Shown: positions 8,849-14,782 of the stretch, one piece after another
Numbering within the stretch: position 1 is the first letter of the stretch
How the letters are laid out: each line of letters opens with the position of its first letter
Assembly (NCBI GenBank): GCA_903844735.1
Contig: CAIMUX010000106.1
Location: 1-45,093, forward strand
DNA length: 45,093 nt
DNA from: Candidatus Eiseniibacteriota bacterium
Lineage (GTDB): Bacteria > Eisenbacteria > RBG-16-71-46 > CAIMUX01
Direction of reading: 5' to 3'
Translations under genes and position numbers: made by a program
The notes under the pieces: generated by a model
Seen by the model: the letters and a program-made list of their open reading frames with translations, nothing else
What the model was told of the DNA's origin: nothing
Database searches by the model: none

Positions 8849-10978
8849 ATGAGCTTTTCCGCAACAGGCAAGTCGTTCACCAAAGACGGCACACCGTACA
8901 TTCTCGTCTCCGGGGAGATACATTACTTCCGGCTTGATCCGTCGGTGTGGGAACAGCACCTCCTGCTTCTGAAGCAGTCCGGGGCAAACACCACCTCAAC
9001 ATACATTCCCTGGGATTGGCATGAGTACGAAGAAGGGAAGTTCGACTTCACCGGCGAGACCGATCGTGCCCGGGATCTCAAGACGTACATTACTCTCTGC
9101 AAGCGGGTCGGCTTGGACCTGATCGTGAAGCCAGGCCCATACATCCTCGCCGAGTACGAGGCATCCGGTCTGCCTGGGTGGCTGCAGGCGCGTTGTTCAC
9201 CCGCGGCGTTCGCCACCGATGAGCACGGCAACATCATCTCGCCCGACATTATGTCGTACATGTCCGCCGAGTTTCTCCACTTCACGCGACTCTGGTACGA
9301 CCGCGTCATGCCGATTATTGCCGCGCATCAGCACGGCAATGGCGGACCGATTATCATGATGCAGGTATGCAATGAGGTCGGCGTATTCCAGTGGCTGTCC
9401 GGCCGCATCGATTACAATGCATGCGTCATCGACCTATATAAGACATTCTTGAAGGGCCATTACAGTTCGATCGAACTACTCAACACAACATATGGATCCT
9501 GTTACCCGTCATTCGACGCCGTCCATCCGCCGCGCGGCATGATCACCACCAGAAGCGAATACGCCGGTTACGTTGATTTCCATTTGTTCTACCGTCGCTA
9601 CTTCGCTCTATATCTTGACACGCTGGCGACAAGCATCAGGTCGTATGGCATCGATGTGCAGCTCACGCACAACATTCCAGGCTGGATTTTCGGGAACGCC
9701 GCTGAACTACCGATGCTCATCAGCACCTATGCCGAAGTGCTGAAGAACCACAAGGAGTTCCTCTTCGGAATGGACCACATTCCAGAGTTTGTCTCCTTCC
9801 GCAACGCGCATTCCGATCTAGCGGCAAACAGGATCCTGGATGCTCTGCAGCCGCACGGTCCGGTGTGGGCAGCCGAGTTCCAATCAGGCACGCGAGAGCA
9901 TCATGTGAAGAACGATCCGGTCGACATGGACATGTTCTATTTTGCTTCTCTAGCGCACGGCCTGAAGGGCTTCAACTACTACATGTTCTCTCAGGGAATC
10001 AATCCGCCCGGAAAGGGATTCTTCGGGAAGACGTTCTACTGCCAGACGCCGCTGGACGTGAACGCCAAGGAATCGGATCTGTACGGGGTGACACAAGCCT
10101 TTGCCCGCTTCATCAACCGCAATCAAAAGGCTCTGCTGGCAAGCGAGCCGAGGGCGAATATCTGTGCCGGCCTGTACAAGCCGTACTTCAACACGGAACT
10201 CACGACATCACAGCTCCTGAAGGAATGCCGTCTTCATGTCGACAAACTCGGATTGTATCTCGATCCGCGCTACATCCGCGAGGAAGTGTTCTTCAACGGA
10301 CTCCTTCGCGGACTTCAGACAATCAACATCAACTATGACATTCGCGATCTCGAGACAACGCCGCTCGACGAGTTGTTGCGCTACACGCAGCTGTGGGTCA
10401 CGACGACGGAGTTTATGGATGCGATAACGCAATCGTCGCTCGCGGACTTCGTGAAGGCGGGCGGACATCTCGTCGTCTATCCGGCTCTCCCGACGCTCGA
10501 CAACTACTTGAATCCATGCACAGTATTGCTCGACAAGCTCGGTCTGTGTATCACGAAGTCCGACAGCCGGAACAAGGTGCGCGCTTTCGGCATCGATGAT
10601 GTGTATTCGACGATGCGTGAGAAGCAATTGTTCGGCGTGACGGACGAGGAGGTCCTGGCGACAACGGCCGCCGGGGAAGCCTGCGGGATACGAAAACGGG
10701 TGGGTGAAGGCTGGGTGGTCGCACTCGGGTTCGCCTTCGGCTATTCCACGGACGACCATTTGCGTTTGTACGAGCAGGTCCTGGGTCTCGACGGAGTCGA
10801 GAGGGACGTTGACGTCTCCGATCCTGACATTCAGTTCGTGCTGCGTCGGGGGAAGAAGTGCTCGTTTCTCTTCCTCCTCAACTACCATAACCGGAAGACG
10901 ACCTTCACGGCGATGGGCCGGCGACATACGCTGAAGCCCTTCGGCTACAAGATTGTCCTTGTGGCTGCGGGCAAATAG
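8849..10978 (+). CDS. Glycoside hydrolase family 35 beta-galactosidase-like enzyme
   Basis: A 709-residue enzyme that begins with the GH35 pattern: a self-contained (beta/alpha)8 barrel starting GEIHYFRLDPSVWEQHL, then NTTSTYIPWDWHE and KPGPYILAEYEASGLPGWL. The acid/base Glu is E176 in GPIIMMQVCNEVG and the nucleophile is probably E343 in WAAEFQSG. C-terminal of the barrel are beta-galactosidase jelly-roll-like regions. No signal peptide is visible, so it is probably cytoplasmic. Base use differs from the neighbours: in the 60 bases from 9421 I count 25 G+C, against 41 of 60 from 13201. This suggests recent acquisition. The ribosome binding site is poor (CACGGGGA). The natural substrate is not known. 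Confidence 0.85.
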   Translation: MSFSATGKSFTKDGTPYILVSGEIHYFRLDPSVWEQHLLLLKQSGANTTSTYIPWDWHEYEEGKFDFTGETDRARDLKTYITLCKRVGLDLIVKPGPYILAEYEASGLPGWLQARCSPAAFATDEHGNIISPDIMSYMSAEFLHFTRLWYDRVMPIIAAHQHGNGGPIIMMQVCNEVGVFQWLSGRIDYNACVIDLYKTFLKGHYSSIELLNTTYGSCYPSFDAVHPPRGMITTRSEYAGYVDFHLFYRRYFALYLDTLATSIRSYGIDVQLTHNIPGWIFGNAAELPMLISTYAEVLKNHKEFLFGMDHIPEFVSFRNAHSDLAANRILDALQPHGPVWAAEFQSGTREHHVKNDPVDMDMFYFASLAHGLKGFNYYMFSQGINPPGKGFFGKTFYCQTPLDVNAKESDLYGVTQAFARFINRNQKALLASEPRANICAGLYKPYFNTELTTSQLLKECRLHVDKLGLYLDPRYIREEVFFNGLLRGLQTININYDIRDLETTPLDELLRYTQLWVTTTEFMDAITQSSLADFVKAGGHLVVYPALPTLDNYLNPCTVLLDKLGLCITKSDSRNKVRAFGIDDVYSTMREKQLFGVTDEEVLATTAAGEACGIRKRVGEGWVVALGFAFGYSTDDHLRLYEQVLGLDGVERDVDVSDPDIQFVLRRGKKCSFLFLLNYHNRKTTFTAMGRRHTLKPFGYKIVLVAAGK

Positions 10979-11063: not shown

Positions 11064-13589
11064 TCACGCTCCCAGTGTCACCTCGACCCGATGCTCCCCG
11101 TCATCCCGAGGAGCCGGGACCATCGCGGCGCCGTCGATGATATGAGCCGGCTCGCCATCCAGCGCACATTCGATCACTCGCGCGGCCTTCCCGGTGGGGT
11201 TGCGCACTTCGATCACCAGGCTCGTCCCGGTCCCGGGCACCTTGAACCGGATCGTGAACCGGGGCCAAGCATCGGGAATGCGCGGCTGCAACCGCACCAC
11301 CGTCCCGTCCTGCATGGTCAGGCCGAGTACCGTTTCGAGCGCGACCCGGTACATCCACGCGGCCGAGCCTGTATACCAGCTCCAGCCGCCGCGCCCGACG
11401 TGGGGCGGCACGCCATAGATGTCGGCCGCGACGACGTAGGGCTCGAGCTGGTAGACGGCAATCGCCTCCGCGGTTGTAGTCCGGTGGATCGGATTCATCC
11501 AGGCCAGCAGATCAGAGGCCGAGTCCCGGCGCCCGAGTTCGGCGAGCGCTCGGACGACCCAGAGCGCCGCGTGCGTGTATTGCCCGCCATTCTCGCGGAC
11601 CCCCGGCGGATACCCCTTGATGTAGCCGGGATCGTGCAGGGTGTTCTGGAAGGGCGGGGCGAGAAGTTTCACGATGCGCCCGGTGTGATCGACGAGCAGT
11701 TCTTCCACCGCATCCATCGCGCACCGCATCCGGTCCCCTGGCGCGGCTCCGGACAGGACCGACCAAGCCTGGACGAGCGCGTCGATCCTGCATTCGTCGC
11801 CAGTCGCGGACCCGAGCGGCGTCCCGTCGTCATAGTATCCGCGCCGGTACCAGAGGCCGTCCCACCCGGCGTCGTTCACCGCCACCCGCAACCGGTCGCG
11901 CGCTCCGCCGTAGCGTTCTGCTCGCTCCGCCTCGCCGCGATCCCGGCAGATCGGAATGAAACCATCGAGCACGGCCACCAGGAAGAACGCCATCCAGACG
12001 CTTTCGCCTCGGCCTTCGCGGCCCACCCGGTTCATCCCGTCGTTCCAATCGCCGGTCCCGAACAGCGGGAGCCCGTGCGCGCCGGTGACGAGTGAACGAT
12101 CGATCGCCCGGGCGCAGTGTTCGTACAGATCCGCCGACTCGTCAGCCTCCTCGGGAACCAGCAGCGCCTCGTCCTCCCCGGGATACAGCCCTCGCGCACG
12201 CAGGAACCGGATGGGCTCCGCCAGCACGGCGCGATCCCCGGTGGTCTGGACATAGAAGACGGTGACGTATGGCAGCCAGAGCAGATCGTCCGCAAAGCGA
12301 GTGCGGATCCCGACGTTGCGCGGTGGATGCCACCAGTGAAGGACATCCCCCTCGATGAACTGGTGGGCCGCGTGCAGAAGGATCTGCGCCCGCGCCCGCC
12401 CTGGTTCCAGGTACATCCAGGAGGCCGCATCCTGGAGTTGATCCCTGAACCCGAAGGCACCGCCCGACTGGTACAGGGCCGAACGCGCCCATAACCGGCA
12501 GACCAACACCTGGTAGGCCAGCCATCCGTTCATCATCAGGTCGAACGCGGGATCGGGCGTGGCGACCTGGAGACCGCAGAGCGCTGTGGTCCAGAAGGCC
12601 CGGACATCGTCGAGCGCCGCGTCCCCGGCCGCGCCGGTTGTGAACAGCTCCGCGAGCACTTCAGCCTCGGCGCGATCCGCGCCTTCGCCCAGCAGGAACC
12701 AGGCGACGGCCTCGCCCCGCGCAGGCAGGGTGAGCTTGAGGCGAAGCGCGACCGAAGGGAGCTCCCCGAAACCGACGAGCCGGTACAACTCGCGCGTCGT
12801 CTCGTCCTCATCGACGTGTGGAAGATCCGCACCGGCGGACGCAAGACCCTCACCAGGTCCGGGGAGAACATCCGCCCGGATTCGTTCCCGTGTTTCGCCC
12901 TGCCGGGTCGCGGCCGAGACCTCGGCAAATCCTGTCATGAACGCCACCGCGTTCTCGTACCCGGGCTGCTCCGTGTTGCGCGCAAAGACGATGCCGCGTG
13001 CCGGGCCTTCCTCGATCTCCACGAACGGTGCGGTCTCCTCCGGCTGACCGCCGAGGACCAGACGCCACGCGCCGAACACCGTGAGACACCGGGCGCGATC
13101 CGCCGTGTTGCGCAGTTGCACGCGCGCGATTTTCACTCTGTCCGAACGTGGGACGAAAAGGACCGTCGTTTGCTCCAACTCCTCGCCGACCATGGCAAAG
13201 CGCGAGTACCCGAAGCCATGGCGCACCTCGTAATCGACCGGCAGCGGATCCGGTCCCGGAAGCGGCGACCACGAGCGTCCGGTCTCCTCGTCGCGGACGA
13301 GAAGTATCTCGCCGTGGGGATCGGTGACCGCATCATTGGACCAAGGCGTAAGACGATGCTCTCGGCTGTTCCCGCCCCACGTGTAGCCGGCCCCACGCTC
13401 GCTGACGAGAAAACCGAAAGTCTCGTTGGCAACGACATTGATCCACGGCCGTGGCGGCAGGAGATGGCCTTCTTCCCCCCGCCAGGGAAGTCGGATGACG
13501 TACTCGTGACCGTCAGCGCTGAATCCACCGTGAAGATTCGGGAATTGCAGCGATACCTTCGACTCACGCTCGTTGGGGATTGTCGTCAT
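11064..13589 (-). CDS. GH94 phosphorylase, NdvB C-terminal type
   Basis: About 841 residues. It resembles the C-terminal third of cyclic beta-1,2-glucan synthase NdvB and of 1,2-beta-oligoglucan phosphorylases (GH94). The N-terminal beta-sandwich contains HGGFSADGHEYVIRL and GYTWGGNSREHRLTPWSND. The (alpha/alpha)6 barrel contains SGGAFGFRDQLQDA and, at residues 512-519, GDWNDGMN with the catalytic Asp (514 or 517). The end has the GH94 small sandwich domain. The ATG at 13589 overlaps the stop of the upstream gene as ATGA, so translation is probably coupled; the frame extended to 13865 is antisense-like. NdvB's glycosyltransferase part is absent. It probably degrades or remodels beta-glucans by phosphorolysis. 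Confidence 0.85.
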   Translation of the reverse strand: MTTIPNERESKVSLQFPNLHGGFSADGHEYVIRLPWRGEEGHLLPPRPWINVVANETFGFLVSERGAGYTWGGNSREHRLTPWSNDAVTDPHGEILLVRDEETGRSWSPLPGPDPLPVDYEVRHGFGYSRFAMVGEELEQTTVLFVPRSDRVKIARVQLRNTADRARCLTVFGAWRLVLGGQPEETAPFVEIEEGPARGIVFARNTEQPGYENAVAFMTGFAEVSAATRQGETRERIRADVLPGPGEGLASAGADLPHVDEDETTRELYRLVGFGELPSVALRLKLTLPARGEAVAWFLLGEGADRAEAEVLAELFTTGAAGDAALDDVRAFWTTALCGLQVATPDPAFDLMMNGWLAYQVLVCRLWARSALYQSGGAFGFRDQLQDAASWMYLEPGRARAQILLHAAHQFIEGDVLHWWHPPRNVGIRTRFADDLLWLPYVTVFYVQTTGDRAVLAEPIRFLRARGLYPGEDEALLVPEEADESADLYEHCARAIDRSLVTGAHGLPLFGTGDWNDGMNRVGREGRGESVWMAFFLVAVLDGFIPICRDRGEAERAERYGGARDRLRVAVNDAGWDGLWYRRGYYDDGTPLGSATGDECRIDALVQAWSVLSGAAPGDRMRCAMDAVEELLVDHTGRIVKLLAPPFQNTLHDPGYIKGYPPGVRENGGQYTHAALWVVRALAELGRRDSASDLLAWMNPIHRTTTAEAIAVYQLEPYVVAADIYGVPPHVGRGGWSWYTGSAAWMYRVALETVLGLTMQDGTVVRLQPRIPDAWPRFTIRFKVPGTGTSLVIEVRNPTGKAARVIECALDGEPAHIIDGAAMVPAPRDDGEHRVEVTLGA

Positions 13590-14782
13590 AGACGCCGAAT
13601 CCCACCATCCGAGTCGAGGGCTACCACGTCGATCGGAAGGTTGAGCTCCCTCCAGAAGCGGGCGGCGGGCTGCCCGGCCTGGACAGTCGGCACCGCATAC
13701 ACCTTCCTCGGCTTTAGGCCCATACTCTCCGGCACCTGTTCCCGATCGCGGATCCGGCGCAGGACCGCGGCATCCGGGCGCACCTTCGGATCTCCGCAGA
13801 GCACCGCCGCCGCCAGCCGCTCGAGTTCGTACGCGCGCGCCGCATCGAGGCCCAGCTCGCGCCATCTGTGCTCCTCCGCACAGGCAGCGGCTTTGAATCG
13901 ATCCTCCACCGCCGCAACCGCGTCGGCCGACCCCAGGTCGGTGAGCGCCAGCGCCGCTTCGCGGTCACCGGCGACGCCGGACAACAACGTGCGCTCGACC
14001 AGGCCGCCCGGGCCGACCGTCACCCGCGTCCGCAGAGAGAACACGGGATCGAGGACATCGCCGGTCGTCCCCGCCAAGGGCGTTTGGGCCAGAAGTGCCT
14101 CCGGCGCGGACGCATCTCGTCCACGGCCTAGGAAACGCATCCGGTCGGTCTCATGCTCAACCGGGCCCGCGGAAAGGAGTGCATGGATCATCCAGGGAAA
14201 GGCGTCGCCGGAATCACGCACTCGTCGACGGAAAAGCAGCGCCCGCCGTTCGGAAACAAACTCCGAGTACACGAAGAGACGCGAAAACGCATGATGGGGG
14301 GCGTGCGAGGGTGGCTCGTGCAGAACGACTTCTCCGTATGTCGTGATCTCTATGGCCCGATCGCACTCGGAGTGGTTGCGCAGCCGCAGGCGTCGCAGTT
14401 CCAGGCCCTGACTCGCGCAGGCCTCCGGCGGAACGCAGGTTTCGAGGACGATTTCGAGATCCCCGACCTTGCGGGTCATCACGACCCGCCCCGGCTCCCG
14501 TCGGTACCCGCCTCGGCTCGGCGGTCCCTCCCCGGGCCGGCTGCCGAGCGAGATGAACCCCTCCATCTCCGGATCCCGCAGGTAGAGGAGGACACCGGCT
14601 CCGCTGTCGAGAGGATCTCCGTTCCATGGCGTCAGTGTCCAACGCTCGAACCAGGAGAAACCGGTGCCGTCATCGGCCAAGAGCACGCCGTACCGTCCGT
14701 TCGAGAGAACGCAGCGATCCCGCAACACCCCGGGGTCGGCGGGCGGGCGGATTCTTTCGGTCCAGGCGGGCATCGGCGGCAT
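13586..14782 (-). CDS. NdvB-like carbohydrate-binding module as a separate protein
   Basis: A 398-residue protein matching the first GH94-associated beta-sandwich of NdvB. It contains VLSNGRYGVLLADDGTGFSW and then LTPWNGDP, RDPEMEGFISLGSRP, LRLRNHSECDRAIEITTYGE and HAFSRLFVYSEF. The end (AARFWRELNLPIDVVALDSD) resembles the AH-YWR-KGL-VDLVILN segment I recall from NdvB, but the linker before it is short and the protein then stops. The ATG at 14782 follows GGAG (CCGGAGACGA). Its TGA overlaps the ATG of the GH94 catalytic gene. Together the two ORFs look like one NdvB C-terminal region with an internal deletion and a split, or a genuine two-subunit phosphorylase. There is no catalytic site in this half. 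Confidence 0.75.
   Translation of the reverse strand: MPPMPAWTERIRPPADPGVLRDRCVLSNGRYGVLLADDGTGFSWFERWTLTPWNGDPLDSGAGVLLYLRDPEMEGFISLGSRPGEGPPSRGGYRREPGRVVMTRKVGDLEIVLETCVPPEACASQGLELRRLRLRNHSECDRAIEITTYGEVVLHEPPSHAPHHAFSRLFVYSEFVSERRALLFRRRVRDSGDAFPWMIHALLSAGPVEHETDRMRFLGRGRDASAPEALLAQTPLAGTTGDVLDPVFSLRTRVTVGPGGLVERTLLSGVAGDREAALALTDLGSADAVAAVEDRFKAAACAEEHRWRELGLDAARAYELERLAAAVLCGDPKVRPDAAVLRRIRDREQVPESMGLKPRKVYAVPTVQAGQPAARFWRELNLPIDVVALDSDGGIRRL

Follow-up and report, generated by a model that had tools for sequence, protein, structure and literature searches.

The arrangement of two overlapping genes in a bacterial genome raises the question of whether a single GH94 phosphorylase can be made as two polypeptides. 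The genes, here termed ORF1 and ORF2, lie in a 45,093-nucleotide stretch of DNA from Candidatus Eiseniibacteriota bacterium (contig CAIMUX010000106.1, positions 1 to 45,093), hereafter the window. A preliminary description, made from the DNA alone, had read them as the C-terminal region of NdvB divided into two translationally coupled proteins with an internal deletion, possibly a functional two-subunit phosphorylase. Here the pair is compared with the Cgs/NdvB synthases, with related phosphorylases and with its genomic surroundings.

Organization of the gene pair

Both genes are on the minus strand, and a PAS histidine kinase gene lies upstream of the pair. Their features are as follows:

13586-14782, minus strand: ORF1, 398 aa, a GP1/Ndom1-type supersandwich and the first half of an RFL domain
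13982-14710, minus strand: complete PF06165 supersandwich domain of ORF1 (Pfam)
13589-13927 (start approximate), minus strand: C-terminal end of ORF1, with a linker helix and the truncated remnant of the RFL, including the conserved FWR segment (alignment and spacing, with RFL boundaries from PMC10901819)
13586-13589, minus strand: ATGA overlap of the ORF1 stop and the ORF2 start (sequence, with a coding-frame switch nearby)
11064-13589, counted from its ATG, minus strand: ORF2, 841 aa, a GP2 supersandwich, GH94 catalytic domain and C-terminal sheet (GP3)
12687-13454, minus strand: PF06165 supersandwich domain of ORF2 (Pfam)
11322-12596, minus strand: PF17167 GH94 catalytic domain of ORF2 (Pfam)

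Pfam searches found one complete PF06165 domain in ORF1 (2.2e-51), and PF06165 (3.8e-51) with PF17167 (2.6e-114) in ORF2. These PF06165 and PF17167 scores are well above cut-off and a DWND motif is found at ORF2 position 514, which identifies the GH94 domain. No Pfam domain other than those of GH94 was found in either protein, in agreement with the earlier remark that the glycosyltransferase (GT84) is absent, and an NCBIfam search returned no match. The ATGA coupling was likewise correctly recognized: stop and start share these four bases at 13586-13589. The ORF2 ATG is placed 20 residues ahead of a GGF motif, and the stretch between the last conserved codon of ORF1 and the first conserved codon of ORF2 is ~56 bases long. 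The ORF2 frame is open for ~92 codons upstream of this ATG, and a mechanical list of open reading frames gives a longer, 933-aa version that begins within ORF1. Codon-usage scores prefer the ORF1 frame until the junction and the ORF2 frame thereafter in most blocks; the score of the ORF2 frame is positive throughout it, with a near tie in one block ~15-30 codons beyond the ATG.

Correspondence with Cgs and the shortened linker

The matching region of Cgs has been divided into GP1, the Rossmann-like RFL (1847-2012), GP2 and GP3 (PMC10901819). ORF1 aligns to residues 1527-1857 and ORF2 to residues 2023-2787 of the solved Agrobacterium Cgs. By this alignment, ORF1 corresponds to GP1 plus part of the RFL, ORF2 corresponds to GP2-GP3, and the cut falls within the RFL. 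The NdvB-type assignment of the preliminary description is thereby borne out, but ORF2 resumes at the start of GP2, the second sandwich, and not inside the catalytic domain, where the restart had been placed. The pair shares with NdvB/Cgs the order GP1-RFL-GP2-GP3 and the conserved catalytic acid; in contrast to these synthases, it is without GT84, cyclase and membrane part, lacks half of the RFL and consists of two chains. Full NdvBs, the host's own among them, are only ~44-45% identical to ORF2. Low-confidence AlphaFold2 models of ORF1 (pLDDT 52, pTM 0.56) and of the fused relative L009 (pLDDT 61, pTM 0.41), built from 13-14 alignment rows, have Cgs as their best PDB match in Foldseek; these models are poor and were used only for this fold-level match.

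Measured by alignment, the internal deletion posited earlier removes the second half of the RFL, leaving the pair ~55 residues short of single-ORF relatives and ~80 short of NdvB. The distance from the conserved W in the YWR segment of the RFL to the GGF that opens GP2 is 43 residues in the pair, versus 82-114 in single-ORF GP-only relatives (counting members with a recognisable W anchor) and 118-125 in NdvB/Cgs-type proteins. Part of the linker between the sandwiches has indeed been lost, although this is not special to the window: the RFL is almost wholly absent in four other proteins (L009, L053, L103 and L106). They are scattered over the tree at several points, which suggests that the RFL was lost repeatedly. 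Because the spacing varies and several relatives are nearly without the domain, the RFL appears to be expendable in the family. Judged from the alignments, the split falls where the protein varies most. It separates exactly the two parts that build the active pocket.

Conservation of both halves

Neither ORF contains an internal stop. ORF1 keeps 40 of 46 near-invariant positions (0.87) and ORF2 keeps 263 of 280 (0.94). In leave-one-out comparisons, single-ORF members keep 0.88-0.98 of the ORF1 part and 0.86-0.99 of the ORF2 part, and the fused sister L104 retains 0.88 and 0.95, respectively. The motifs FRDQ (381), DWND (514), RENGGQYTH (665) and WYTG (738) of ORF2 were matched, motif by motif, to R630/D631, W758/D760, R916/E917/Y922/H924 and Y1004 of LpSOGP. 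D517 in DWND (codon 12039-12041) aligns with Cgs D2528, which has been named as the catalytic residue (PMC11842490). Both halves therefore look alive at the sequence level, and the earlier impression that neither had decayed holds. Five of the six near-invariant residues lost from ORF1 cluster at 159-173. This stretch is taken to be the pocket-helix segment, placed by alignment position rather than structure, and the clustering could reflect relaxed constraint on ORF1.

Phylogenetic placement and rarity of the split

GP2-GP3 trees place the pair in a GP-only clade that is parted from full synthases at 100/100 support, with the single-ORF L104 as its nearest row (support 86/93). Members of this clade are normally one ORF of ~1,110-1,360 aa, and ORF2 is 50-55% identical over its whole length to nearly all of them. 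The pair shares clade, domains and beta-1,2-glucan gene neighbours with these GP-only homologs of the NdvB C-terminus. Whereas the homologs examined carry GP1 and GP2-3 in one polypeptide, ORF1 and ORF2 are in different frames joined by the ATGA overlap. Two short proteins, L053 and L054, group instead with the synthases; L054 represents one part of a gene that has been broken into two frames.

The preliminary description had supposed that the glycosyltransferase was shed at this locus. However, the pair belongs to a GP-only clade that already existed, and the host genome encodes a separate full-length NdvB of 2946 aa elsewhere. Given this placement, the glycosyltransferase, if the clade ever had one, was lost long before the split. 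The nearest relative L104 and other intact relatives are single ORFs, which indicates that the split is derived and rare. Intact single ORFs in the closest relatives had been put forward as an argument against a two-subunit enzyme; they do exist, but they do not disprove joint function.

The same split was sought in relatives, and no second certain case was found among ~465 genomes (overlapping samples, including 47 genomes from the host phylum). The split is certain in only one metagenome-assembled genome (MAG), a draft. In G012, the GP2-3 contig starts ~25 codons before an ATGA located 23 residues ahead of GGF, as compared with 20 in the window. None of the frames upstream of that ATGA has a coding-like score, and the GP2-3 frame runs without a stop back to the contig start. 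A possible second split with the ATGA at a near-identical place thus sits at a contig edge (L151 positions 1-80).

Other candidates were set aside. Ndom1 pieces stop at contig edges in G215, G202 and G046, as in G012, which is not counted as a certain split. The GP1-RFL protein L091 (G147) breaks off after the first 60 GP2 residues; the remainder was not found in the fetched stretch, consistent with truncation of the copy or with a break in the assembly. L044 (G037) is a fused gene with a frameshift, and in L042 the N-terminal extension ahead of the GP1 start looks like noise. A search of mostly non-subscription literature found no earlier description of a split GH94, consistent with the remark that the arrangement was not known as described.

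Genomic context and likely pathway

The convergent neighbour of the pair is a further carbohydrate-active gene:

8849-10978, plus strand: GH35 protein, near-full-length homolog of IaSGT (E 7e-290)

IaSGT is a GH35 beta-1,2-glucosyltransferase (PMC8861115; PDB 7VKW). Its homolog in the window, a gene separate from the phosphorylase, retains acid/base, nucleophile and arginine motifs where these are expected (residues per PMC8861115). In Ignavibacterium, the IaSGT cluster contains a homolog of the C-terminal SOGP domain of Cgs, which is proposed to release sophorose as the donor for IaSGT (PMC8861115). IALB_1177 of Ignavibacterium has been described as such a homolog.

Among 27 GP-only loci, GH144 homologs are found nearby in 10 and ABC sugar permeases in 11 (tblastn, 1e-15); these counts include L154, leave out the window, L053 and L055, cover the fetched stretches only, and contain some matches that are fragments at a stretch edge. 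No PF10091 match was found in the contig of the window. The IaSGT-like neighbour, together with the GH144 and ABC neighbours of relatives, supports the substrate class well. The pathway is very probably one of beta-1,2-glucooligosaccharide use, and the enzyme probably breaks down beta-1,2-linked glucose chains. Elsewhere in the host genome, contig C22 carries two PF10091/GH144-type genes (L112 and L113) and a LacI regulator, likely a beta-1,2-glucan degradation locus.

The GH35 gene has a GC content of 55.9% against 65.2% for the window and a tetranucleotide r of 0.67, whereas the GH94 pair has a genome-like composition (r 0.96). From this contrast the two probably arrived separately, the GH35 gene being probably a recent import beside a native GH94 pair. 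Contamination of the MAG was considered and discounted, the rest of the window matching the other contigs of the genome at a tetranucleotide r of 0.992. GH35 homologs (31-32% identical) also adjoin single-sandwich GH94 genes of ~820-860 aa in two other lineages (L126, L127 and L129); the GH35-GH94 pairing thus recurs across lineages.

A proposed two-chain phosphorylase and its alternatives

Dimeric GH94 enzymes have their pocket completed by a sandwich from the partner subunit, while in LpSOGP a duplicated N-terminal sandwich (Ndom1) does so within one chain (PMC5309861). ORF1 matches the LpSOGP domain that completes the pocket, which makes a heterodimer with ORF1 acting in trans the most likely mechanism. 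We assign a probability of about 0.55 to the reading that the pair is one GH94 phosphorylase of the GP-only branch of NdvB/Cgs, its chain divided in the RFL linker and working as a heterodimer. ORF1 would supply the Ndom1/GP1 sandwich, and ORF2 the Ndom2/GP2 sandwich and the catalytic barrel. The ATGA overlap would couple translation so that both chains are made together, and ORF1 would then close the acceptor side of the ORF2 pocket, at the position of Ndom1 and through the same interface. The assembled enzyme may use phosphate to shorten imported or internal beta-1,2-glucan chains, yielding glucose 1-phosphate together with sophorose, the latter of which could be used by the GH35 neighbour. 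The loss of half the domain and the split would both be accounted for by one out-of-frame deletion of ~165 bases within the RFL coding sequence. Structurally, a sandwich as a protein of its own would be an easy step, since the pocket is already completed by another subunit or by a duplicated sandwich in known enzymes.

The proposed heterodimer resembles two known forms. LpSOGP/LiSOGP (GH94; PDB 5H3Z) likewise have two sandwiches ahead of the barrel and a pocket between Ndom1 and the barrel, but are monomeric single chains of distant sequence (ORF2 E 7e-4) and without an RFL. In the dimeric phosphorylases acting on cellobiose, chitobiose and cellobionic acid, the pocket is also completed by the sandwich of another polypeptide; however, these are homodimers of one gene product with beta-1,4 substrates. 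The restriction to one MAG, the fused nearest relative and the lost ORF1 residues at 159-173 count against the heterodimer.

An unlikely but substantial alternative is a single ORF with a shortened RFL linker that has been split by a one-base assembly error or a recent frameshift. Just ~56 bases lie between the conserved ends, so one indel would suffice, and the case comes from one draft genome in which the ORF2 frame stays open for those ~92 codons upstream. ATGA is in itself weak evidence because an A before TGA is not rare, with a chance of perhaps 1/5 by our estimate. Relatives with shortened linkers are fused, and G037 shows that frameshifted copies of the fused gene occur. Nevertheless, the two frames each have a coding signature on their respective sides of the junction, the start ATG is sensibly placed before GGF, and intact reading frames are seen both in the window's other long genes and in the genome's 2946-aa NdvB.

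It is improbable that ORF2 acts alone as a homodimer in the manner of cellobiose phosphorylase, its own sandwich serving the pocket of the partner and ORF1 being a leftover. Its domain set is that of the dimeric GH94 enzymes, and in G333, G462 and G034 GH35 homologs adjoin stand-alone GH94s of ~820-860 aa with a single sandwich. Yet ORF2 belongs to the GP-only clade and is just 34-36% identical to those proteins, ORF1 is retained nearly as well as the same part of L104 (0.87 vs 0.88), and Ndom2 of LpSOGP is without the substrate-recognition helices of Ndom1 (PMC5309861). Programmed -1 frameshifting that yields a fused protein is very improbable, for although ORF2 occupies the -1 frame, which is open upstream across the end of ORF1, the X XXY YYZ heptamer is absent from the last 140 codons of ORF1.

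Implications

Returning to the two-chain enzyme, we give about even odds to a natural heteromeric GH94 phosphorylase whose pocket-completing sandwich forms a subunit of its own, made by translational coupling, an arrangement that G012 might share. Such a form would reverse the domain duplication thought to have made SOGP monomeric. As a discovery the locus is modest, since earlier work has described the enzyme class, its neighbours and the logic of the pocket; it is a natural variant in which an enzyme that is one protein in nearly all relatives is encoded by two overlapping genes. If both chains are needed, the pair would offer a ready-made split enzyme for studying how the GH94 pocket is completed in trans, and would exemplify a domain duplication undone by gene fission. 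The locus also draws attention to the GP-only NdvB homologs of beta-1,2-glucan gene clusters, a large family that has been little studied.
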